64,000 nucleotides of DNA, from assembly GCA_913062865.1 (NCBI GenBank), contig CAJXWO010000008.1:1-64000 (forward strand), in the 5' to 3' direction. The stretch is from an uncultured Paracoccaceae bacterium. GTDB lineage: Bacteria; Pseudomonadota; Alphaproteobacteria; Rhodobacterales; Rhodobacteraceae. This document shows, one piece after another, positions 21,234-35,025 of this stretch. The position numbers and the translations under genes are program-made. The notes under the pieces are model-generated. The model worked only from the letters and a program-made list of their open reading frames with translations. It did not search any database and was not told where the DNA came from. How positions within the stretch are numbered: position 1 is the stretch's first letter; each line of letters begins with the position of its first letter.

Positions 21234-21258
21234 GCCCTTGTGCACCACCGGGTGGCTG

Positions 21259-21282
21259 CGATATGTCCGTCGAAACATATCG
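21259..21282. promoter_or_regulatory. Mo-box (ModE operator) in front of modA
   Basis: Perfect 8-bp arms CGATATGT and ACATATCG with 8 bp between them, close to the known Mo-box pattern ATCGnTATATA-N6-TATATAnCGAT. It ends 14 bp before the modA ATG, where binding would block transcription or translation initiation of modABC. Confidence 0.72.
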
Positions 21283-21296
21283 AATGGACCCGCCCT

Positions 21297-22049
21297 ATGC
21301 ATCGCCTGATCCTAGCGCTTTTCCTTCTCATCACGGCCCCGGCGGTCCGTGCGGCGGACCAGGTGACGGTCTTTGCCGCTGCCAGCCTCAAGAACGCCAT
21401 GGAAGAGATCGCCCGCACCTACGAAGACGATACCGGCGCGCAAGTGGTGCTGTCCTTTGCGGGGTCGTCGGCACTGGCCCGTCAGATTCAGTTCGGCGCA
21501 CCAGCGGATGTGTTCATATCGGCCAACACGGACTGGATGGATGCGCTCGGGGCCGGACGGCACCTTGCCCCCGACAGCCGCTTTGACCTGGCCTCGAACC
21601 GGATCGTCCTGATCGGCGCGGCTGGCACAGACCCTGTCGACCTGTCCGATACGGATGCCTTGACCACGGCCTTGCAAGGTGGACGCCTAGCCATGGCACT
21701 CGTCGATGCGGTGCCCGCAGGGATCTACGGCAAGGCTGCGCTGCAAAGCCTGGACCAGTGGGAGAGGCTCGCCCCCCACGTGGCGCAGGCCGACAACGTG
21801 CGCGCGGCACTGGCCCTGGTGGCCTTGGGCGAGGCACCGCTTGGCATCGTCTACGCAACCGATGCCGCGGCAGAGCCCCGTGTCGAGATACGCGCCACCT
21901 TTCCGGATACCAGCCACCCGCCGATCCGCTACCCCGCCGCCGCACTGTCCGGGACCGGGCCGGAGACACAGCGGTTCCTGAGCTATCTCAAGGGCACGAC
22001 GGTGGAGGAGATCCTGCGCGACCACGGCTTCCTGCCCGTGGCGGACTGA
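21297..22049 (+). CDS. modA: Molybdate ABC transporter solute-binding protein ModA
   Basis: A 250-residue periplasmic protein with a Sec signal (MHRLILALFLLITAPAVRA) and the ModA core: VTVFAAASLKNAMEEIARTYE, FAGSSALARQIQFGAPADVFISAN and the later ALVDAVPAGIYGKAAL. The two SS/SA loops bind the oxyanion. Start at 21297 gives the signal peptide directly; upstream in-frame codons would run into the Mo-box. It is the first gene of modABC. Confidence 0.94.
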   Translation: MHRLILALFLLITAPAVRAADQVTVFAAASLKNAMEEIARTYEDDTGAQVVLSFAGSSALARQIQFGAPADVFISANTDWMDALGAGRHLAPDSRFDLASNRIVLIGAAGTDPVDLSDTDALTTALQGGRLAMALVDAVPAGIYGKAALQSLDQWERLAPHVAQADNVRAALALVALGEAPLGIVYATDAAAEPRVEIRATFPDTSHPPIRYPAAALSGTGPETQRFLSYLKGTTVEEILRDHGFLPVAD

Positions 22050-22052
22050 GCG

Positions 22053-22745
22053 GTGGATTGGCTCGGCCCGGAAGAATGGCAGGCGGTCCGCCTGTCCCTG
22101 CGCGTGTCGATCTGGGCCACCCTGTGCAGCCTGCCCCTCGGGATCCTCACGGCCTATGCGCTGGCACGGTGGCGCTTTCCGGGCAAGGCGCTGGTCAACG
22201 GACTGGTCCACCTGCCGCTGATCCTACCGCCTGTCGTGACGGGCTATGTGCTTTTGCTGGGCTTTGGCACCCAGGGCCCCTTTGGCGCGGTCCTCTCCCA
22301 GCTGGGCATCACGGTGGCCTTTCGCTGGACCGGTGCGGCGCTTGCGGCCGCGATCATGGCCTTTCCGCTCATGGTCCGGGCCATCAGGCTCGCCATAGCG
22401 GCGGTCGACCCGAAGCTTGAAGAGGCCGCGGCGACCCTTGGTGCCTCTCGGCCCTGGGTTTTCGTCACGATCACCCTGCCCCTGATCTTGCCCGGCGTGC
22501 TGGCCGGGGCAATCCTGGCCTTTGCCAAGGCCATGGGCGAGTTCGGCGCGACCATCACCTTCGTGTCGAACATTCCCGGACAGACCCGAACTGTGCCGTC
22601 GGCGATCTACGCCTTTCTTCAGGTGCCCGGCGGAGAAACGGCCGCATTGCGGCTCGTGCTGGTCTCGGTCGCGGTGGCCATGGGCGCGCTTCTGGCGTCC
22701 GAGGTGCTGGCCCGGCGGGTCGAGCGTACGGTGCGCGGCACATGA
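22053..22745 (+). CDS. modB: Molybdate ABC transporter permease ModB
   Basis: A 230-residue membrane protein with five to six helices, a PLILPPVVTGYVLLLGFG segment and the cytoplasmic loop EEAAATLGASRPWVFVTITLPLILPGVLAG that docks on ModC. It starts with GTG 3 bp after the modA stop and overlaps modC by 4 bp. Confidence 0.94.
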   Translation: MDWLGPEEWQAVRLSLRVSIWATLCSLPLGILTAYALARWRFPGKALVNGLVHLPLILPPVVTGYVLLLGFGTQGPFGAVLSQLGITVAFRWTGAALAAAIMAFPLMVRAIRLAIAAVDPKLEEAAATLGASRPWVFVTITLPLILPGVLAGAILAFAKAMGEFGATITFVSNIPGQTRTVPSAIYAFLQVPGGETAALRLVLVSVAVAMGALLASEVLARRVERTVRGT

Positions 22746-23830
22746 CCCTGTCGGTCGCACTGCACCATCGGCTCGGGGATCTGGATGCCGATATCGCCTT
22801 CGACGCCCCTCCGGGCGTGACCGCGCTGTTCGGCCATTCGGGCGCGGGCAAGACCACCGTGGTCAACTCGGTTGCGGGACTGTTGCGCCCCGATCGCGGT
22901 CGCGTGGCGGTGGGCGACTGGGTGCTCTACGATACGGAGCGCGCCCGCTGGCTGCCGCCCCATCGACGGCAACTGGGCTACATCTTTCAGGAGGCCCGGC
23001 TGTTTCCCCACCTGACCGTCCGGCAGAACCTGCTTTATGGCCGCTGGTTCGCGGGTGCGGCGCGCAGGGCCGAAGGGCCCGAGCGGATCATAGACTTGTT
23101 GGGCATCGGCAACCTGCTGGAGCGGCGTCCCAACGGGTTGTCCGGCGGCGAAAGACAGCGCGTGGCCATCGGCCGGGCGCTGTTGTCCGCGCCGCGGCTG
23201 ATCCTTGCTGACGAACCGCTTGCTGCACTGGACACCGCCCGCAAGGACGAGATCCTTCCCTATTTCGAGCGGCTGCGCGACGAGGTGGGCATCCCAATCC
23301 TTTATGTCAGCCATTCCGTTGCCGAGGTCGCGCGGCTCGCCACGACCGTCGTCGTTCTCGACCAGGGCAAGGTCGTGCGCGCGGGCCCCACGGCCTCGGT
23401 CCTGTCGGATCCCGCTGCCGTGCAGGGGATCGCCCCCCGTGAACTGGGCGCCGTTCTGACGGCACGGGTGCTGTGTCATCACGCGGACGGCCTGAGCGAA
23501 TTGCAGACCGCGGGCGGCACGCTTTTCCTGCCCCGCGTCGAGGCCGCGCCGGGCCGGACGCTGCGGGTGCGCATCGCCGCGCAGGACGTGATCCTGTCGA
23601 CCGCTCGGCCCGAAGGGTTGTCGGCCTTGAACATCCTGTCCGGCACCATCGCCGACCTGCACGAGGGCAAGGGCCCTGGCACGCTGGTCCGGATCAGGCT
23701 GGGGCAGCAGGATCTGCTGGCGCGCATCACGCGGCGCTCGGCCCGGGCCATGGGGCTGGCCCCCGGACAAGCCTGCCATGCGGTGATCAAGACGGTCTCT
23801 GTTGCGCAGACGGATATCGGCCAAGGTTAG
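22742..23830 (+). CDS. modC: Molybdate ABC transporter ATPase ModC
   Basis: A 362-residue ATPase. Walker A GHSGAGKTT, signature LSGGERQRVAIGRALL and Walker B LILADEPLAALD are all intact, and the C-terminal 75 residues form a Mop/TOBE domain (SALNILSGTIADLHEGKGPGTLVRI) that senses molybdate. The stop codon TAG shares two bases with the stop of the convergent znuB gene. Confidence 0.94.
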   Translation: MTLSVALHHRLGDLDADIAFDAPPGVTALFGHSGAGKTTVVNSVAGLLRPDRGRVAVGDWVLYDTERARWLPPHRRQLGYIFQEARLFPHLTVRQNLLYGRWFAGAARRAEGPERIIDLLGIGNLLERRPNGLSGGERQRVAIGRALLSAPRLILADEPLAALDTARKDEILPYFERLRDEVGIPILYVSHSVAEVARLATTVVVLDQGKVVRAGPTASVLSDPAAVQGIAPRELGAVLTARVLCHHADGLSELQTAGGTLFLPRVEAAPGRTLRVRIAAQDVILSTARPEGLSALNILSGTIADLHEGKGPGTLVRIRLGQQDLLARITRRSARAMGLAPGQACHAVIKTVSVAQTDIGQG

Positions 23831-25920: not shown

Positions 25921-25940
25921 AATGTTATATTATAACAGTT
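25921..25940. promoter_or_regulatory. Zur box between zur-znuCB and znuA
   Basis: The core TGTTATATTATAACA (25923-25937) has perfect 7-bp arms around a single central base and fits the proteobacterial Zur site GAAATGTTATAnTATAACATTTC closely. It lies 39 bp before the znuA ATG and 35 bp before the zur ATG, so one dimer pair could repress both directions when zinc is sufficient. Confidence 0.88.
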
Positions 25941-25976: not shown

Positions 25977-26999
25977 ATGATCAAACGTAGACTCATGGGT
26001 GCCGCCCTTGCCACGACAGCCCTTGTCGGCAGCCTCTCGGCAGAGGTGCCCAAGGTTGCCACTGATATTGCCCCGGTCCAATCGCTCGTGGCCATGGTGA
26101 TGGGCGAGCTTGGCAACCCTGACGTGGTGGTGCGCCCCGGGGCATCGCCCCACGGCTACGCGATGCGTCCGTCCGAGGCGCGCGCGCTCAACGATGCCGA
26201 TCTGGTGTTCTGGGTGGCCCATGGCCTGACCCCCTGGCTCGAAGGCCCGATCGAAACCCTTGCGGGCGATGCACATGTGATCGAGCTGGCCACTGTCGAC
26301 GGCGTGACGGTTCTGGAGAACCGGGAAACGCCGGTCTTTGCCAAGGCGGAAGATCATGACCACGACCACGAAGGCGAACACGACGATCATGCCGGACACG
26401 ACCATGGCCACGAAGAACATGTCGAGGATGCGCATGATCACGGGCACGACCATGGGCATGATCACGACCACCGCGCCTTCGATCCGCATCTCTGGCTCGA
26501 TCCGATGAACGCCACGGTCTGGCTGGGGGCCATCGCCGATGAGCTGGCCGAGCACGACCCGGACAATGCAGACACCTACCGCGCCAATGCCGAGGACGCG
26601 ACCGCGCAGATCACGGCGCTGATCGACAAGACGCAGGCCGATCTCGCCCCATACCGCGACGTGAATTTCATCGTCTACCACGACGCCTACCAGTATTTCG
26701 AAACCCGTTTTGGTCTGCGCGCAACCGGCGCCATCGCGTTCAGCGACGCCACAGACCCGGGCCCGGCACGCATTGCCGCGATCCGCGAGGCGGTTCAGGA
26801 CAACAAAGTCAGCTGCGTCTTTGCAGAACCACAGTTCCAGACCAACCGCGTGAACACGGTCTTCGAAGGCTCCGGCGCGCGGACGGCCGTGATCGACCCG
26901 CTGGCCCGCAGCCACGAACCGGGACCGACCCTCTACCTCAACCTGATCGAGGATCTGAGCCGCACCATGATCGAATGCCTGTCGGGCAGCGACGGCTGA
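25977..26999 (+). CDS. znuA: Zinc ABC transporter solute-binding protein ZnuA
   Basis: A 340-residue cluster A-I binding protein. The zinc ligands of the family are all visible: His59 in GASPHGYAMRPS, His171 in FDPHLWLDP and His235 in YHDAYQYFETRFG, plus an acidic residue near FAEPQF. Between residues 127 and 165 is a long His/Asp loop (about 15 His) typical of high-affinity ZnuA. A signal peptide occupies residues 1-22. I chose the ATG at 25977 because the longer open frame upstream crosses zur and the Zur box. Confidence 0.95.
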   Translation: MIKRRLMGAALATTALVGSLSAEVPKVATDIAPVQSLVAMVMGELGNPDVVVRPGASPHGYAMRPSEARALNDADLVFWVAHGLTPWLEGPIETLAGDAHVIELATVDGVTVLENRETPVFAKAEDHDHDHEGEHDDHAGHDHGHEEHVEDAHDHGHDHGHDHDHRAFDPHLWLDPMNATVWLGAIADELAEHDPDNADTYRANAEDATAQITALIDKTQADLAPYRDVNFIVYHDAYQYFETRFGLRATGAIAFSDATDPGPARIAAIREAVQDNKVSCVFAEPQFQTNRVNTVFEGSGARTAVIDPLARSHEPGPTLYLNLIEDLSRTMIECLSGSDG

Positions 27000-27072
27000 T
27001 CCCCGCCGATCCTGAAACGCTGTGGGCATTTTCCCTGCATCCTCCTATATCGGAGGAGACAGGGAGAGGCCC

Positions 27073-27675
27073 ATGGCACCACGCAGCACCATTGTCAGCG
27101 GACTGGCGATCCTCGCCATTGGCGCCGGTGTGGGCTTTGCCGTGTTGCGGCCCACGGAACCGGCGGCCTATGCCGCGCCCGGCTTCGAGGCGTTGACCCC
27201 GCAAGAAGCCGCGCGGGAAAGCTACCAGCTGGCCCCCGAAATGCTGCGACAGGTCTACGAGGCCTTTGCCGCAACCGACGAGGCTGCGGTTTATGACGGG
27301 CTGGCCCTGGTCGCGGGCGGGGATGCGCTCGACCAGCTCTACCTCGACCGGATGGGCGCGCTGGCCGGCGGCGGGCTGACCGAAAGCGACCAGACCATAC
27401 ACGAGATGCGCCTGATCCAGCTTGAGGCACGGCAAAAGGCCGAGACCGTCACGATGGATGCCACATGGCGTGTCATCGGCACGGTGGGCCATGCGGAACA
27501 CATGCATGTGCGCGGAAATGTCTATTCCGCCAGCCTGACGCTAGAGCCCGTCGATGGCGCCTGGCGGATCACCGGTTTTGACCTGCGCGATATCGACCGC
27601 ACCGGCGCAGGCGAGATGTTCGAAGTGCCCCCAGAGGACGTCACCCCCATGACCGAGGCCGACGCGACCCAATGA
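27073..27675 (+). CDS. Exported/anchored protein of unknown function at the head of the hybrid metal operon
   Basis: A 200-residue protein that I do not recognise by name. Residues 8-24 are a single hydrophobic segment (signal or membrane anchor), so most of the protein is periplasmic. Residues 58-190 look like one alpha+beta domain similar to NTF2/Tim44-like folds: a long helix around LAPEMLRQVYEAFAATDEAAVYDGLA, then strands ending EPVDGAWRITGFDL. The motif GHAEHMHVRGNVY holds three His and could bind a metal. A strong GGGAGAGG ribosome site precedes the ATG. It overlaps the following ATPase by 4 bp, so it is probably a periplasmic part of that ABC system. Confidence 0.72.
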   Translation: MAPRSTIVSGLAILAIGAGVGFAVLRPTEPAAYAAPGFEALTPQEAARESYQLAPEMLRQVYEAFAATDEAAVYDGLALVAGGDALDQLYLDRMGALAGGGLTESDQTIHEMRLIQLEARQKAETVTMDATWRVIGTVGHAEHMHVRGNVYSASLTLEPVDGAWRITGFDLRDIDRTGAGEMFEVPPEDVTPMTEADATQ

Positions 27676-28343
27676 TCGAGATCCGCGATCTGGACTTTGC
27701 CTATCCCGGGGGCGGCTTTCGCCTGACCGTGCCCGAGCTTGTGCTGGAAAGCGGCGAACGCACCGCCATCGTCGGGCCAAGCGGCACCGGCAAGACCACG
27801 CTTCTGAACCTGATCGCCGGGCTGGTCACGCCGGATCGGGGCACGATCCGACTGGACGGCGAAGACATCGCCGGGCTGGGCGACGGTGCCCGCCGGGCCT
27901 TTCGCGCGCGGCGCATCGGCTTTGTGTTTCAGGATTTCGCCCTGCTCGACTACCTGACGGCGCGCGACAACATCCTGTATCCCTTCCGCATCGGTGCGGG
28001 CCTGAACGTCGATGCGTCTGCCCGGGACCGCGCCGATGCGCTGGCCCGGGCCTGCGGCATCGGCGACAAGCTCGCCCGCCACCCGGCACAACTCAGCCAG
28101 GGCGAGCAACAGCGCGTGGCGCTGTGCCGGGCGCTCGTCACCGAACCGCAGCTTGTGCTGGCGGACGAGGCCACGGGCAATCTCGACCCGTCGAACAAGA
28201 CCGCGATCCTCGACCTGATGTTCGACCGCGCCGCCGATCAGGGGGCCACGCTGCTGGCAGTCACCCACGATCACGATCTTCTGCCGCGCTTCGACCGGGT
28301 GATCGACTTTGCCACCTTCCGGCAACCCGAGGGCACGGCATGA
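27672..28343 (+). CDS. LolD/MacB-type ABC ATPase
   Basis: A 223-residue ATPase with Walker A GPSGTGKTT, Q-loop FVFQDFALLDYLTARDNIL, signature LSQGEQQRVALCRAL (LSQGE in place of LSGGQ) and Walker B LVLADEATGNLD. Length and the FQDFALLDYLT segment are those of type VII (LolD/MacB/FtsE) exporters and mechanotransmission ATPases, not of metal importers. It overlaps both neighbours and pairs with the FtsX-type permease that follows. Confidence 0.88.
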   Translation: MIEIRDLDFAYPGGGFRLTVPELVLESGERTAIVGPSGTGKTTLLNLIAGLVTPDRGTIRLDGEDIAGLGDGARRAFRARRIGFVFQDFALLDYLTARDNILYPFRIGAGLNVDASARDRADALARACGIGDKLARHPAQLSQGEQQRVALCRALVTEPQLVLADEATGNLDPSNKTAILDLMFDRAADQGATLLAVTHDHDLLPRFDRVIDFATFRQPEGTA

Positions 28344-29497
28344 GCATTCTCTACCTCGCCTTCGCCTATCTGCGCTTTCACTGGATCCGCAGCCTTGTGC
28401 TGGTTCTTGTAGCAGCGCTGATCCTCGCCGTGCCCATGGTCAGCCACACGCTCTTGCGCGGCAGCCAGGAGGCGCTGACCAACCGCGCCGAGGCGACGCC
28501 GCTCCTGCTTGGCCGCCGTGGCAGCCAGATCGACATGGTGATGAACGCGCTCTACTTTGCCGATGAACGCGCCACGCCAATCACCATGGCTGCCACCGAA
28601 GAGATCTGGGACAGCGGGCTGGCGATTCCCGTGCCGCTGCATACCGCGTTCGAAACGAACGGTGCGCGCATCGTTGGCACCACGCTTGACTATTTCGACT
28701 ACCGCGCTCTCGAGGTCGCCGACGGCCGCCAGATCGCGGTCTTGGGCGAAGCGGTCCTGGGTGCCGCCGTCGCCCAGCGGCTGGGGCTTGGCCCCGGCGA
28801 CACGGTCGTGTCCGCGCCGCAGAACCTGTTCGATCTTGACGGGGTCTATCCGCTCGAACTGAAGATCACCGGCATACTGGCCCCCACCGGCACCCCCGAT
28901 GACGAGGCCGTTTTCACCGATATCAAGACCGCCTGGGTCATCGCCGGGATCGGGCATGGACATGACGATGTCGTCTCGGTCGATGCCAGTGACGAGAATG
29001 TCGCCGCTGCCGCCAGCCTCCTGCAATTCAACCGCATCACGCCCGACAATATAGACAGCTTCCATTTCCATGGCGATCCGGACGACTACCCGGTGTCGTC
29101 CATCGTGGTGTCACCCTATGATGATCGGTCTGCCACGATCCTGCGCGGCCGATACCTGGACCCCGAGAACCCGCTGCAGATGGTCGTCCCGTCAGAGGTG
29201 ATCGGCGACCTCGTGGCGCGGATCTTCCGGATCAAGACGCTGCTCGATGCCGTGACGGTGATCGTGGGCGCCGCCGCGCTGGCCGCTGTCGCGCTGGCGG
29301 TGTTCCTGTCCTACCGCCTGCGCGCGCCCGAAATGCGCACCGCCTTCAAGATCGGTGCCGGCCGCGGTACGATCCTGCGCTTGCTTGGGGCGGAAACCGC
29401 GTTGATTTTGTCCGCGTCAGCGGTGCTGGCCGCCCTATGTGTCATACTCGTGCAATCGCGCGGCGACAGGTTGGTCGCGTATCTCTTGTCCCTGTAA
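28340..29497 (+). CDS. FtsX/LolC-type ABC permease
   Basis: A 385-residue protein with an N-terminal helix (RSLVLVLVAALILAVPMVSHTLL), a large periplasmic domain of about 240 residues, and two to three helices near the C-terminus (VTVIVGAAALAAVALAVFLSY and ALILSASAVLAALCVIL). The short cytoplasmic segment RAPEMRTAFKIGAGRGTILRLLGAE is the typical FtsX/MacB coupling region. The domain order is that of FtsX/LolC permeases, slightly short because the last helix is followed by only a few residues. It is the membrane partner of the preceding ATPase. Confidence 0.85.
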   Translation: MSILYLAFAYLRFHWIRSLVLVLVAALILAVPMVSHTLLRGSQEALTNRAEATPLLLGRRGSQIDMVMNALYFADERATPITMAATEEIWDSGLAIPVPLHTAFETNGARIVGTTLDYFDYRALEVADGRQIAVLGEAVLGAAVAQRLGLGPGDTVVSAPQNLFDLDGVYPLELKITGILAPTGTPDDEAVFTDIKTAWVIAGIGHGHDDVVSVDASDENVAAAASLLQFNRITPDNIDSFHFHGDPDDYPVSSIVVSPYDDRSATILRGRYLDPENPLQMVVPSEVIGDLVARIFRIKTLLDAVTVIVGAAALAAVALAVFLSYRLRAPEMRTAFKIGAGRGTILRLLGAETALILSASAVLAALCVILVQSRGDRLVAYLLSL

Positions 29498-29516
29498 CCC
29501 GAGAACGGAGGCTTTC

Positions 29517-30284
29517 ATGCGTTCCATTACCCTTGCCACCCTCACCGCCGCCCTTCTGGGCACCGCCGCGCAGGCCCATTACGGCATGATCATCCCCAGC
29601 GATCCGATGCTCGAACAGGACGAGGGGCGCGAGATCGACCTGACCTTGTCCTTTTCCCACCCGTTCGAAGACCTTGGCATGACGCTCGATCGGCCCGTGT
29701 CCTTTGGGATGACCCATGACGGTACCCGGACCGACCTGCTGGACGCCCTGACCGAGACCGAGGTCATGGGCGAGGCGGGCTTTGGCCTGACCCAGCGCCT
29801 CGAACGTCCCGGCACCTACATCTTCACCATGGAGCCGCAGCCCTATTGGGAGCCGGCCGAGGACGCGTTCATCATCCACTACACCAAGACCTATGTCAGC
29901 GCCTACGGCGAGGACGAGGGCTGGGACAGCGAACTGGGCCTGAAGACCGAGATCGTACCGCTGTCGAAACCCTTTGGCCTGTGGTCAGGCAACGTCTTCC
30001 AGGGCATCGTGAAACTGGATGGCGAGCCGGTCCCCTACGCCGAGGTCGAGGTGGAATACTACAACGAAGACCTCAGCGCCCAGGCGCCGAGCGATCTGAT
30101 GATCACCCAGACGGTCAAGGCCGATGCCGATGGCGTCTTTACCTATGCCGCGCCGCAATCCGGCTGGTGGGGCTTTGCCGCGCTAAACACTGCTGATTAC
30201 ACCCTCCCGCAGGATGGCGAGGACAAGGCCGTGGAACTGGGCGCGGTGATCTGGGTGCATTTCGAAGAGTGGATGACCGAATGA
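29517..30284 (+). CDS. DUF4198 periplasmic protein (NikK-like)
   Basis: A 255-residue exported protein with a cleavable signal ending AAQA and a mature start HYGMIIPSDP, which places a His at or near the N-terminus. The rest is two beta-sandwich parts: FGMTHDGTRTDLLDAL, TYIFTMEPQPYWEPAEDAFIIHYTKTYV, then a transthyretin-like domain with GEPVPYAEVEVEYYN and ADGVFTYAAPQSGWWGFAA. DUF4198 proteins are known as periplasmic partners (NikK) of nickel/cobalt ECF importers; here no NikMQO genes are present. It overlaps the next gene by ATGA. A metal-delivery role is inferred. Confidence 0.83.
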   Translation: MRSITLATLTAALLGTAAQAHYGMIIPSDPMLEQDEGREIDLTLSFSHPFEDLGMTLDRPVSFGMTHDGTRTDLLDALTETEVMGEAGFGLTQRLERPGTYIFTMEPQPYWEPAEDAFIIHYTKTYVSAYGEDEGWDSELGLKTEIVPLSKPFGLWSGNVFQGIVKLDGEPVPYAEVEVEYYNEDLSAQAPSDLMITQTVKADADGVFTYAAPQSGWWGFAALNTADYTLPQDGEDKAVELGAVIWVHFEEWMTE

Positions 30285-30613
30285 GGAAACTCCTGATCGC
30301 ACTGGCGGTGGTGGCGGCCTGGCCCGCCATCGCCCATCAACTGAACGTCTTCGCGTCGGTCGACGGAACCGATGTTGTGGTCGAGGCCAAGTTCTCTTCC
30401 GGCAAGGTGCCCCAGGTGGGCGAGGTGCGCGTCTATGACGCCACCGATGCCCTGCTGGTCACGCTGCCCCTGACCGGCGAAGAAACCCTGCGCTTTCCGC
30501 TGGACCCTGTCGCCGCCCAACAGGGTCTGCGGATCGAGGTCAACACCGGTGAAGGGCACGAGGATTACTGGATCCTGACGCCCGACGACATCGCCGCGGG
30601 CCAAACCAACTGA
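30281..30613 (+). CDS. Small NikL/CbiL-like periplasmic protein
   Basis: A 110-residue exported protein: signal peptide to about residue 18 ending AIA, then HQLNVFASVDGTDVVVEAKFSSGKVPQVGEVRVYD, a pattern like the start of NikL/CbiL (AH-LNVF...FSGG). The usual C-terminal membrane helix of NikL is absent; the protein ends in ILTPDDIAAGQTN. It again exposes a His directly after the signal. It is translationally coupled to the DUF4198 gene. Confidence 0.72.
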   Translation: MRKLLIALAVVAAWPAIAHQLNVFASVDGTDVVVEAKFSSGKVPQVGEVRVYDATDALLVTLPLTGEETLRFPLDPVAAQQGLRIEVNTGEGHEDYWILTPDDIAAGQTN

Positions 30614-30624
30614 GGAGTGTGCCG

Positions 30625-31494
30625 ATGCGCTGGATTGCCCTGACGATCGCCCTTCTTACGGCAGCGCCGCTCGCCGCCCAGGACCGGACGCGGATCGTCG
30701 CCGTGAACCACCCCCTTGCCTATTTCGCCAAACGCCTTGCGGGTGACGCGGCCGAGGTGGTCTATCCGGTGCCAGAGGGGCGGGATCCGTCATTCTGGCG
30801 TCCTGGCATCGCGGATATCGCGGCGATCCAGCAGGCTGACCTGATCGTGCTGAACGGCGCCGGTTTCGCGGACTGGGTCAAGAAGGCGTCGCTGCCCCGA
30901 TCGCGCATCGTCGACACCTCGCGCGGGTTCGCGGGCGAATTCATCGCCACCGACACCGTGACCCACAGCCACGGGGCCGACGGGGCGCATTCCCATACCG
31001 GCACGGCCAGCTATACCTGGATGGATTTCAGCCTGGCCGAACGGCAGGCAGAGGCGCTGTCCATCTCGCTCAAGCGGATGCTGCCCGAGGCCGATGTCGA
31101 TCCGGTCCTCGACGCGCTGCGCAACGACCTGCAGGCGCTGCACGACCGCGCGACCGAGATCGCCGCACGTCTGGAGGGGCAGACGCTTATCGCCTCGCAT
31201 CCGCGCTACCAGTATTTCGCGCGCGCCTACGGGCTCGACATCCGTTCGGTCAGCTGGGACGCCGGCGCAGCGCCGGACCCGGCGCAGATCGACGAATTGA
31301 CCGGCTTGGTTCAGGACACCGGCGCGACCATCTTCCTGTGGGAAGCAGCACCCCCGGAAGACGCCCGCACCGCCGTAACCGAAACAGGCCTGCGCGACGT
31401 GATCTTCCCGCCCCTGGCGGTGCCCGGCCCGAGCGGGGATTTCGTCGCGGACATGAATGCGGCCTTGGATCGGCTGGCCGCGCTGTCGGGCTAA
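30625..31494 (+). CDS. Divergent ZnuA/TroA-like metal-binding protein
   Basis: A 289-residue cluster A-I-like periplasmic protein with a signal peptide (1-18). Compared with ZnuA, the first two ligand motifs are changed: PEGRDPSFWRP stands where GASPHGY is expected, and TASYTWMDF where DPHLW is expected. A His in VNHPLAYF (29), a short THSHGADGAHSH cluster (113-124), His192 in SHPRYQYFARAYG and an acidic LWEAAPPED segment remain. It probably binds a transition metal, but not in the standard ZnuA way. I chose the ATG at 30625, 8 bp after GAGGAG; a GTG at 30619 is too close to that site. There is no ABC-3 permease next to it. Confidence 0.8.
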   Translation: MRWIALTIALLTAAPLAAQDRTRIVAVNHPLAYFAKRLAGDAAEVVYPVPEGRDPSFWRPGIADIAAIQQADLIVLNGAGFADWVKKASLPRSRIVDTSRGFAGEFIATDTVTHSHGADGAHSHTGTASYTWMDFSLAERQAEALSISLKRMLPEADVDPVLDALRNDLQALHDRATEIAARLEGQTLIASHPRYQYFARAYGLDIRSVSWDAGAAPDPAQIDELTGLVQDTGATIFLWEAAPPEDARTAVTETGLRDVIFPPLAVPGPSGDFVADMNAALDRLAALSG

Positions 31495-32399
31495 CGCAGG
31501 GTGATCGTGAAGCGCCGCTGCGCCCCGGGCGGAGGTTTGGGGAACGGGGCGGCCCGACGCACCACCGCAAGCGCCTCCTGATCGAAGCGTGCCCGGCCCG
31601 AACTGCGCGCAAGCGACACCGACCCAAGGCCGCCGCCCGCGGTGACCGTGAAACTGACGACGGCGCCCTCCGGGGCCTTGGCCCGCACGCGGCCTGCGCG
31701 GGCCAGTCGCTGGTAGACTTTCCGGGGATAGGCCTTGGCCGCCGCGTCCGTTCCCATCGGCGCGGCCTGTCGGGCAGGTGCCGCCGCCGCAGCACCTGGA
31801 TCCGTGGTACCTTGACCGGTGGTTTTCGGCACAGGGGTCGGCGTTGGTTTGCGCGTTGTGGCCTGCTGCACCGCCTGCTCGGGTTGGCGCGGCGCGGTTT
31901 CGCGTTTGGGTACCACGAAGTCACGCGGGCGTGGCGCCGGTCGGCGGGAGCGATCGGGGGCCGTGGTTTCAGGCACCGCCGCCACAACGCGGTCCGCCGG
32001 TGTTGCCGCCACGACCGCCGTGCGCGGTGCCGTTTCCGCCTGCACCGCTGGGGTCGATGGCTTCAACGCGGGCACGCGTGGCGCGACGGGCCGCGGGCGC
32101 ACGGTCTCTGGCTCCGCTGCATTGGCATTCGGGCGTTCCGGTCTCAGGGGCTCGGCGGCTGAGGGCACCAAGGCACGCGCCGGACGCTCTGGCGACGTCG
32201 CTGCCGGTACCGTCTGAGGTTCGGGCGGCATCGTTCGGGTGGCAAAGCTGGCGAAGCCCGTCCCGATGCTGCCAAGCTCGACCGCGTCGGTGCCGTTCTG
32301 CGCATCCGCCGCGGGCTCTGGTATCAAGGCCCAGATCGCCCCTGCATGAACGATCACAGCGAGCGCCGCCGCCACGGCCTTTGCCGCGCCACACGTCAT
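31491..32399 (-). CDS. tonB: TonB-family energy transducer
   Basis: A 302-residue protein with one N-terminal membrane helix (AAALAVIVHAGAIWALIP), a long Pro/Ala/Arg-rich periplasmic spacer (about 55-215) and a C-terminal TonB domain with YPRKVYQRLARAGRVRAKAPEGAVVSFTVTAGGGLGSVSLARSSGRARFDQEALAVVRRAAPFPKPP. It transmits the proton-motive force to outer-membrane receptors. Its stop codon shares bases with that of the convergent ZnuA-like gene. It is the last gene of the exbB-exbD-exbD-tonB operon. Confidence 0.9.
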   Translation of the reverse strand: MTCGAAKAVAAALAVIVHAGAIWALIPEPAADAQNGTDAVELGSIGTGFASFATRTMPPEPQTVPAATSPERPARALVPSAAEPLRPERPNANAAEPETVRPRPVAPRVPALKPSTPAVQAETAPRTAVVAATPADRVVAAVPETTAPDRSRRPAPRPRDFVVPKRETAPRQPEQAVQQATTRKPTPTPVPKTTGQGTTDPGAAAAAPARQAAPMGTDAAAKAYPRKVYQRLARAGRVRAKAPEGAVVSFTVTAGGGLGSVSLARSSGRARFDQEALAVVRRAAPFPKPPPGAQRRFTITLR

Positions 32400-32779
32400 C
32401 GCAGCCCCTCTTCGGTGACGATGACAACACGCGCGGCCCCCCTTTCGGCCAGATCCCGGGCGAGGCCCACAAGGGTCGTCGCCGGCAAGGCGCGGTCCGG
32501 TACCAGGCGCACGGTATCCCGCGCCACGTCACCGCCTTGATCCAGGAAGTCGGCGACCGACGCCACCTCTGCGCCCCGGTAACTCAGACGCCCATCCGGA
32601 TGCACCACAAGCGCGTCGGGCGGCGGGGTCCGGTCGAGCTCGGCGGTACGCACGAGCCTCAGCTCCCGGTCCATGGGCGGTCCCAGCGTTCCCGCGACAA
32701 GAAAAAAGACAAGCATCAGGAACACGACATTGATCAGCGCGATCGTGGGTTCACGGCGGGTCTGGCTCACACGCCGCAT
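32396..32779 (-). CDS. Second ExbD-like subunit with Asn in place of the membrane Asp
   Basis: A 127-residue ExbD/TolR-type protein with one N-terminal helix. The membrane motif reads TIALINVVFLMLVFFLV: residue 17, where ExbD carries the proton-pathway Asp (Asp25 in E. coli), is Asn. The periplasmic part (HPDGRLSYRGAEV, VARDTVRLVPDRAL, GAARVVIVTEEG) is normal. It overlaps tonB by 4 bp and follows the first ExbD by one shared base. It probably forms a mixed dimer with the Asp-containing copy. Confidence 0.88.
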   Translation of the reverse strand: MRRVSQTRREPTIALINVVFLMLVFFLVAGTLGPPMDRELRLVRTAELDRTPPPDALVVHPDGRLSYRGAEVASVADFLDQGGDVARDTVRLVPDRALPATTLVGLARDLAERGAARVVIVTEEGLR

Positions 32780-33150
32780 TATCCGTCCCCCAGCACGGTC
32801 ACGTCCAGCCCGGGCACGCGGCCCAGCGTGACGAGAAGGTCGGTCAGCCGCTGGGCATCCACCGCGCCGCGCAAGCTCACGAGTACCTGGGTCTCGACGC
32901 GGTCGCCAAGGCGGTCCCGCATGTCGGCCAGCGACACCGGCAGTCCGTTCAAGAGCACCCTGTCGGGCGACAGTTGCACGAAAACGGGCGGTGCGTCCGT
33001 CCCTGCCCCGCCGCCCCGGCCCGTGACCAGGGGCACCTCGCTGAACTGCGAAAAGGTGGAGCTGAGCATGAAGAACAAAAGCAGCAGAAAGATCACGTCG
33101 ATCAGTGGGGTCAGGGCGATCCGCCGCATACGCCGGCGCGCGCTAGGCAT
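32779..33150 (-). CDS. exbD: ExbD biopolymer transport protein
   Basis: A 123-residue ExbD with the standard membrane motif ALTPLIDVIFLLLLFFML, where Asp18 is the proton-carrying residue. The periplasmic domain includes SPDRVLLNGLPVSLADMRDRLGDRVETQVLVSLRGAV. Start at 33150 overlaps the exbB stop by 8 bp; a longer frame to 33222 lies within exbB. Confidence 0.9.
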   Translation of the reverse strand: MPSARRRMRRIALTPLIDVIFLLLLFFMLSSTFSQFSEVPLVTGRGGGAGTDAPPVFVQLSPDRVLLNGLPVSLADMRDRLGDRVETQVLVSLRGAVDAQRLTDLLVTLGRVPGLDVTVLGDG

Positions 33151-33799
33151 GGACAGACCCGCTGTCCTGCACCGCCACCGTCTGGGCCCGCCCCCGCGGG
33201 CGCAGGATCGTGTGCAGCGCACGTTCTGCGAAAACGCGATCGCGTTCGAGACGCCCCTCGAGCCAGCTGAGAACCAGAGCTGTCGGCATCGCGACCGCGA
33301 GGCCCAAAGCCGTGGTCAGAAGCGCGACCCAGATCCCGCCCGCAAGGCGCGCAGGGTTCACCTGGGCGCCCGCCTCCTGCATGGCCTGGAAGGCCTCGAT
33401 CATGCCCAGAACCGTTCCGAACAGGCCCAGAAGCGGGGCCAGTTGCGCCACGCTGTCGAGAAAGCGCAGACCGCCCTCGAGCCGTGCGAACCGCGCCTCG
33501 GCCTCTGCCCGGAGGCGTGGCGTATCCAGGGCCCCGGCGCCCATCGCGTCGCTGAGGAGCGGGGCAAGGTAGCTGCTTGCGGGCGCAAGCTCGGCCAGGG
33601 CGCGGGGCCTGTCGCCCTCGTCCCACGCGGAAAGCGCGCGCTGCAACCGGGCCTGCCGCCCCACACCTTCGGCTGTGAACTGCCAGATCTTGTAGAAGAT
33701 GACCCCAAGCGTAAGCACCGACACGGCAAGCAGTACCATGACGACCGGACCGCCCAGTTCGAGCACGCGCGCAACAGGCTGGCCCACCGCACCCATCAC
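33143..33799 (-). CDS. exbB: ExbB (MotA/TolQ/ExbB proton channel)
   Basis: A 218-residue membrane protein with three helices: a first near residues 10-35, then LDSVAQLAPLLGLFGTVLGMIEAFQAM and GGIWVALLTTALGLAVAMPTALVLSWLEGRLERDRV. The two pore threonines (GTVLG and LLTTALG) are present. It forms the pentameric channel around ExbD. It overlaps the upstream small exported protein by ATGA. Confidence 0.92.
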   Translation of the reverse strand: MMGAVGQPVARVLELGGPVVMVLLAVSVLTLGVIFYKIWQFTAEGVGRQARLQRALSAWDEGDRPRALAELAPASSYLAPLLSDAMGAGALDTPRLRAEAEARFARLEGGLRFLDSVAQLAPLLGLFGTVLGMIEAFQAMQEAGAQVNPARLAGGIWVALLTTALGLAVAMPTALVLSWLEGRLERDRVFAERALHTILRPRGRAQTVAVQDSGSVHA

Positions 33800-34363: not shown

Positions 34364-34885
34364 TCAGGCAACGCGGGCCGTGCCGCGGCTGACACTCAGC
34401 GCCCAGTCGAGCAACGCATCGTCACCGGAGGGAACAGCCTGCGCCAGATCGCCCGCGAAAGCATCGAAGGCCACGCGATTGCGGGGATGCACCGATGTCA
34501 GAACCGGGATCTCCTGCATGAGCGCGATACCGATCGCGTCGCGAAAGCCGCTGCCCTCGGCCTCCTGCTTGCCGAACTTGTTCACGAGCAACAGGTCCGG
34601 GCCGGTGTCGAGCGATGCCGTCACCTGGCCCACGACGTCTTCGAGCGCGGCGGGATCGAGCCTGCACCCCGAGGCCAGTGCACCGAGGTCCTGGGAAATG
34701 AGCCGCCGCGCGCCATCCGGCAGGACACGCGCCTGCATTCGGCATTTGCCAGTGTCGCCGCAATCGAGATTGTATTGCACGCATCCCGCCAGCCGCACCC
34801 CGCGCCGGATAAGCCGGTCCGCCAAGGCGGCCAGACGGCGGTCGCTGCCACCGCGCGCGTCGTGGCTGATCACTCCCAATTTCAT
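34364..34885 (-). CDS. DUF2478 protein
   Basis: A 173-residue protein of the DUF2478 type: KLGVISHDARGGSDRRLAALADRLIRRGVRLAGCVQYN, the Cys pair DCGDTGKC, and PDLLLVNKFGKQEAEGSGFRDAIGIALMQEIPVLTSVH. It has the shape of a small P-loop-like nucleotide-binding protein without a clear Walker A. Relatives are often near molybdenum genes, but here the mod genes are 11 kb away. Start at 34885 was chosen because the upstream frame enters the ectoine terminator. It is followed after 121 bp by the TonB operon. Confidence 0.72.
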   Translation of the reverse strand: MKLGVISHDARGGSDRRLAALADRLIRRGVRLAGCVQYNLDCGDTGKCRMQARVLPDGARRLISQDLGALASGCRLDPAALEDVVGQVTASLDTGPDLLLVNKFGKQEAEGSGFRDAIGIALMQEIPVLTSVHPRNRVAFDAFAGDLAQAVPSGDDALLDWALSVSRGTARVA

Positions 34886-34967
34886 CACGCGCCTCACAGG
34901 GTTCAGGCCGGGACTATCGCGCAACCGGCGCCCGCGCACCAGAGCCCGCTGTGACGCAGGCCGCCAC

Positions 34968-34999
34968 AAAAAAAATCCCGCACGGACGCACCGTGCGGG
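34968..34999 (-). terminator. Rho-independent terminator of the ectABC-ask operon
   Basis: A perfect 9-bp stem CCCGCACGG / CCGTGCGGG (34977-34985 and 34991-34999) with a 5-base loop. On the minus strand it is followed by one A and eight T residues (34968-34975). It lies about 27 bp past the ask stop. Confidence 0.93.
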
Positions 35000-35025
35000 C
35001 AAAGCTAAGCAAATGGTCCCGGACC

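Follow-up and report, generated by a model that had tools for sequence, protein, structure and literature searches.

Known ATP-binding cassette (ABC) systems for metals import or export their substrate, and we know of no demonstration to date of an energised step that solely shifts metal between periplasmic proteins. Type VII ABC systems usually perform mechanical work on the periplasmic side with no substrate crossing the inner membrane (PMC12646458). Zur-regulated examples of a MacB-type ABC pair are ZrgBC and PA4064-PA4065 (PMC9820375, PMC11481552). A role of ZrgABCDE in the zinc biology of Vibrio has been shown (PMC9820375, PMC9817125). For PA4063-PA4066 the case has been made for MacB-type export with an effect on cobalt, PA4064-PA4065 being read as a pyochelin-cobalt exporter (PMC11481552); the debate between importer and MacB exporter is still running for these systems. 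NikK and NikL are additional parts of nickel energy-coupling factor (ECF) importers, and orphan copies have been noted with no role assigned (PMC2667541). Here we describe six genes at positions 27073-31494 of a 64,000-nucleotide stretch (the window; positions 1 to 64,000 of contig CAJXWO010000008.1, assembly GCA_913062865.1) of an uncultured Paracoccaceae bacterium, the contig being alphaproteobacterial and the assembly 2.79 Mb in size and 86% complete. Judged from sequence, they form a type VII ABC module that is widespread, appears not to have been described before, bears strong signs of metal binding and likely handles a divalent metal. Our tentative interpretation, to which we give slightly less than an even chance, is that this self-contained type VII (MacB/LolC-fold) ABC module carries out ATP-driven handover or release of divalent metal in the periplasm.

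The six open reading frames (ORFs) are flanked on one side by the divergent zur-znuCB / znuA pair and on the other by tonB-exbD-exbD-exbB, a block convergent with them:

27073..27675, + strand: X, a membrane-anchored exported protein with one transmembrane (TM) helix followed by an NTF2/Tim44-like domain; no Pfam match
27672..28343, + strand: ABC ATPase of the FtsE/LolD/MacB type; PF00005 (ABC_tran), 120 bits
28340..29497, + strand: FtsX/MacB-fold permease; MacB_PCD (PF12704), 38.5 bits, cut-off 27
29517..30284, + strand: DUF4198 (NikK-like) periplasmic protein; DUF4198, 198 bits
30281..30613, + strand: NikL-like soluble protein; NF058648, 65 bits, under the cut-off of 100
30625..31494, + strand: divergent ZnuA-fold protein; PF01297, 132 bits

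Three junctions are ATGA overlaps (27672, 28340 and 30281) and the remaining two gaps measure 19 and 11 bases, which agrees with an earlier note on this DNA that had described six coupled or closely spaced genes on one strand. The same note had reported that no ABC-3 or NikM permease is present, and the ORF list and profile scan of the six-gene cluster indeed contained no ABC-3 permease, NikM, NikQ or NikO.

The nearest functional precedent is ZrgABCDE. Together with PA4063-PA4066 it resembles the module in having separate genes for the ATPase and a MacB-like permease that share an operon with genes for metal-binding proteins of the periplasm, and in its link to zinc. However, ZrgABCDE contains ZrgA (DUF2796, PF10986) and ZrgE (DUF3299) and is under Zur control, whereas the module contains X, the ZnuA-fold protein, DUF4198 and NikL; a Pfam scan of all six module proteins detected neither PF10986 nor DUF3299. 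Vibrio hangzhouensis and Anianabacter each possess both systems. With the NikKMLQO nickel/cobalt ECF importers the module shares NikK (DUF4198) and NikL homologues, the latter below the curated cut-off, but NikM, NikQ and NikO are missing and the module NikL lacks the C-terminal TM helix found in ECF NikL. The derivation of these two proteins from partners of ECF importers was nevertheless well founded, as the nearest DUF4198 homologues elsewhere adjoin NikL and ECF genes (PMC2667541). The ZnuA fold (PF01297) is common to the module and the cluster A-I importers ZnuABC and AztABC, but the module carrier is devoid of canonical ligands 1 and 2, has a new HxHGxxxxHxH loop and is not accompanied by an ABC-3 permease. 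Finally, MacAB-TolC, LolCDE-LolA, FtsEX-EnvC and YbbAP-TesA have the permease fold, the ATPase type and periplasmic partners in common with the module, which differs from them by three TM helices, invariant histidine motifs and metal-type partners and by having no MacA, LolA, EnvC or TesA. A literature search found no published description of the operon, and one on GntH likewise came up empty. The idea of a MacB-type ABC in zinc biology is not entirely new, being precedented by ZrgBC and PA4064-PA4065.

The six genes are a real conserved unit, shared by dozens of marine bacteria. In a set of 198 genomes from the bacterium's own family, the permease (called at E < 1e-80) and the ZnuA-like protein (E < 1e-40) occurred in an identical set of 17 genomes, the window's included, and always at one shared place. 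The DUF4198 subtype (at least 358 bits) was present in 16 of these 17 genomes and nowhere else among the 198, and the same 16/17 fraction carried all six genes in identical order; the exception (G007, locus L048) has neither DUF4198 nor NikL. Scanning 84,980 species genomes brought up more than 300 relatives, and 80 named loci among them were retained. The six-gene order was found in 44 of the 80 and the four-gene core X-ATPase-permease-ZnuA-like in 18 more, while several of the remaining 18 sit on short or cut contigs. Since this order is kept mostly amid unrelated neighbours, the module is more than a chance neighbourhood. Neither of the two outcomes that the earlier note had named as contrary to its idea, independent scattering of the genes and pairing of the ABC genes with lipoprotein genes, came up when checked. 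Members belong, among others, to Rhodobacterales, Gammaproteobacteria, Methylococcaceae and Vibrio hangzhouensis, as well as to Thermodesulfobacteriota and Myxococcota metagenome-assembled genomes (MAGs); the four-gene core reaches Gammaproteobacteria and delta-type lineages, and DUF4198 and the NikL-like protein are added in alphaproteobacteria. One further locus, L085, was considered as a true loss of DUF4198 and NikL and set aside, because an N-derived run at that point probably marks an assembly gap.

The LolD/FtsX pair proposed earlier stood as an ABC ATPase with a MacB/LolC-fold permease, but not as LolD proper. Of 79 relatives, 77-78 conserve the Walker A and signature motifs of the ATPase. 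Against the FtsE and LolD models the ATPase scores well under either cut-off; "LolD" is a generic label only, and "FtsE/LolD/MacB-type ATPase" is the better name. In the AlphaFold2 (AF2) model of the permease (predicted local distance difference test, pLDDT, 80; predicted template-modelling score, pTM, 0.71) the top structural matches were MacB, LolC/LolE and HrtB (Foldseek hits 5gko and LolCDE; VIA Z up to 17.5), which is the fold to be expected of the mechanotransmission ABC that had been suggested, and a sequence search gave no match in the PDB. The module thus shares the ATPase motifs and the MacB-type permease fold of type VII ABC systems but departs from them in helix number. Type VII permeases typically have four TM helices (ten in YbbAP/BceAB), whereas both hydropathy and AF2 gave three for the module permease. 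It stops 54 residues past the coupling Glu. In other type VII permeases, ZrgB among them, this tail is 97-100 residues long, and because the longer stretch holds TM4, the module permease lacks this helix. The idea that the helix of X stands in for TM4 was unsupported, as the X helix appears oppositely oriented (N-in). In the periplasmic domain of the permease, H206 and H208 (GHGH) and H242 and H244 (FHFH) are invariant in 80/80 sequences. The ZrgB compared is the opposite on both counts, having TM4 and no HGH/HFH, and in the permease tree the 81 members of the module family split from ZrgB and others at 100/100. The reduced permease also bears on efflux, that is, MacB-like export of metal or a metal-ligand complex from the periplasm. 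PA4064-PA4065, when taken as an exporter of this type (PMC11481552), offers a parallel, but the module permease has no TM4, and a MacA-like adaptor and a TolC-like gene are neither part of the module nor recurring beside it, so that we regard efflux as very unlikely.

Invariant histidines were also found in each of the exported proteins. The ZnuA-like protein falls within the PF01297 fold family, with ZnuA/AdcA retrieved by a PDB profile search. Its canonical His1 and His2 are gone, replaced by DPxFW and (almost always) TWLD or YTWMD, while H114, H116, H122 and H124 of the HxHGxxxxHxH loop are invariant in 73/73 sequences and H192 is present in 99%. The DUF4198 protein has H21, H48 and H121 and the NikL-like protein H19 and H93, all invariant in 46/46. 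An AxA-His junction, with the cleavage site called by sequence pattern and no signal-peptide predictor, was seen in 43/48 DUF4198 relatives and 45/45 NikL-like ones; as H21 and H19 directly follow the predicted AxA site, they may be the N-terminal histidines of the mature proteins. In X, H140, H143 and H145 (GHxxHxH) are invariant in 67/67 aligned sequences and are placed at the turn joining strands 2 and 3. All periplasmic parts of the module therefore look metal-binding. This, together with the strict pairing with a ZnuA-fold protein across several phyla, speaks against an ordinary envelope ABC for lipoprotein or lipid in which the metal-binding proteins are incidental or structural; although the permease fold is nearest to LolC/LolE, MacB and HrtB, we consider such a function highly improbable.

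ZnuA-fold proteins normally feed importers, and the module could accordingly be a non-canonical importer in which the ZnuA-like protein feeds the permease and metal enters the cytoplasm, as proposed for ZrgABC. The V. cholerae zrg genes, which encode a MacB-type ABC pair, are required for growth under low zinc without znuA (PMC9820375). However, the permease has three TM helices instead of four, type VII permeases usually contain no transmembrane path (PMC12646458), two canonical ligands are missing from the ZnuA-like protein and most loci have no Zur box. Import is thus an unlikely explanation. We infer instead metal binding, with zinc as the likeliest metal, and ATP-driven handover rather than transmembrane transport.

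The AF2 model of X (pLDDT 91) matched ARC6/PARC6, VirB8 and Tim44 in Foldseek, which is a generic NTF2/Tim44-like fold, and neither sequence nor profile search found a relative in the PDB. The short X of alphaproteobacteria corresponds to the C-terminal part of a protein of ~600-640 residues in non-alpha loci, laid out as a signal peptide, a periplasmic domain of ~370 residues, two TM helices and then the X domain. The ~370-residue domain occurs in 19/80 loci as well as in L048, and never together with DUF4198. Alphaproteobacterial loci have the short X and, between the permease gene and the ZnuA-like gene, the additional DUF4198 and NikL genes. On the permease tree the architecture required just 3-4 changes, and all non-alpha loci formed a 99/100 clade. 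This mutually exclusive distribution suggests that the job of the lost N-terminal domain of X plausibly passed to the NikK/NikL-like pair, a replacement that hints at the function of these accessory proteins.

Upstream of long X, a gene for a GntH-type metallo-beta-lactamase (MBL) hydrolase was found in 11 loci, and the four proteins tested scored 400-491 bits against a cut-off of 333. At L093, L099, L123 and L125 the gene for this periplasmic hydrolase precedes that of a ~610-aa protein which Pfam does not match, an arrangement conserved in gamma/delta lineages. The module could therefore load exported metalloenzymes, for example the GntH-type hydrolase itself, and one Methylomonas MAG has genes resembling pmoC, pmoA and pmoB by eye next to the module (L118:237-3195). 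On the other hand, no such enzyme adjoins the module in DUF4198-bearing alphaproteobacteria and no recurrent neighbour was seen among 121 flanking ORFs, which makes metal insertion distinctly unlikely.

Handover without import is the mechanism that we prefer. ATP hydrolysis by the cytoplasmic ATPase would move the permease's periplasmic domain, rich in histidine, which would swap metal with the ZnuA-fold carrier and with the membrane-tethered, NTF2-like X; in alphaproteobacteria the NikK/NikL-like pair would also take part in the exchange. ATP would thereby power the passing on or release of metal among the carriers of the periplasm. A bolder version, in which the module represents a distinct type of ABC machine whose substrate at no point crosses the membrane, the three-helix, His-bearing permease stripping metal or handing it over between periplasmic carriers as the metal counterpart of LolCDE passing a lipoprotein to LolA, seems to us a doubtful though serious proposal. 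The module is a good test case owing to its clearer metal signature, with invariant histidines in permease, carrier and anchor, and its reduced permease.

The earlier note had also placed the module in a Zur context and had suggested release from an outer-membrane carrier. The two relevant features of the window lie just upstream of the module:

25924..25936, strand unspecified: Zur box GTTATATTATAAC, between zur and znuA; 0 mismatches
25977..26999, + strand: canonical znuA; PF01297, 222 bits; 73 bases upstream of the module, a neighbour outside the conserved unit

The Zur box precedes znuA, and the module is therefore reachable only via read-through from znuA. When 500 bp upstream were scanned, Zur boxes directly upstream of the module were present in only 1/68 loci (Anianabacter salinae L049), and a znuA adjoining the module was absent in nearly all relatives, so that the idea of the module as a Zur operon was not supported. 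Because Zur boxes and znu adjacency are rare and no operator is held in common, the zur-znu setting of the window, suggestive as it is for zinc, is not a defining trait and is mostly incidental. The outer-membrane idea likewise found no footing, as a Pfam scan of the 121 flanking ORFs revealed no recurring partner, outer-membrane receptor included.

Several observations weigh against the handover of metal as we propose it. In the regions upstream of 46 alphaproteobacterial copies, a de novo search for dyads gave nothing above shuffles, that is, no conserved metal-responsive operator. The enrichment of ZnuA-type genes in the flanks, at three other alphaproteobacterial loci versus 0.2 expected from their density, counts in favour of handover, but comes from three loci and a rough rate. 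The GntH-type hydrolase beside the gamma/delta module hints that the module does something different from simply supplying metal, and the histidine clusters could bind haem or be structural.

In A. salinae the zrg operon is divergent from the module, with three Zur boxes between them common to both (L049:2910-5560). At one locus (L035/L062) a Fur/Mur-like palindrome, AAATGAGAATTATTCTCATTT, separates the module from a divergent Sit/Znu-type metal ABC operon. The second perfect Zur box of the window's genome (C52:7307) was dismissed, as it lies near a ribonuclease HII-like gene by eye and no metal gene was recognised there. The genome search turned up a single TonB-dependent receptor, which is on another contig, beside a FecCD-like permease by eye, and was not retained since its context is not one of zinc.

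Just 5' of X, at 27032-27067, there is a near-perfect inverted repeat, TCCCTGCATCCTCCTATATCGGAGGAGACAGGGA (RNA fold -23 kcal/mol), which is not followed by a T run and was not seen in relatives. The tonB gene, two exbD genes and exbB occupy 31491-33799 on the - strand, convergent with the module. Downstream of the gene for the ZnuA-like protein, L097 and L118 share a gene for an exported protein of 175 aa. Read by eye, genes for a modABC-like molybdate importer lie upstream of the znu genes (21240-23830), and a DUF2478-like protein is encoded at 34364-35002.

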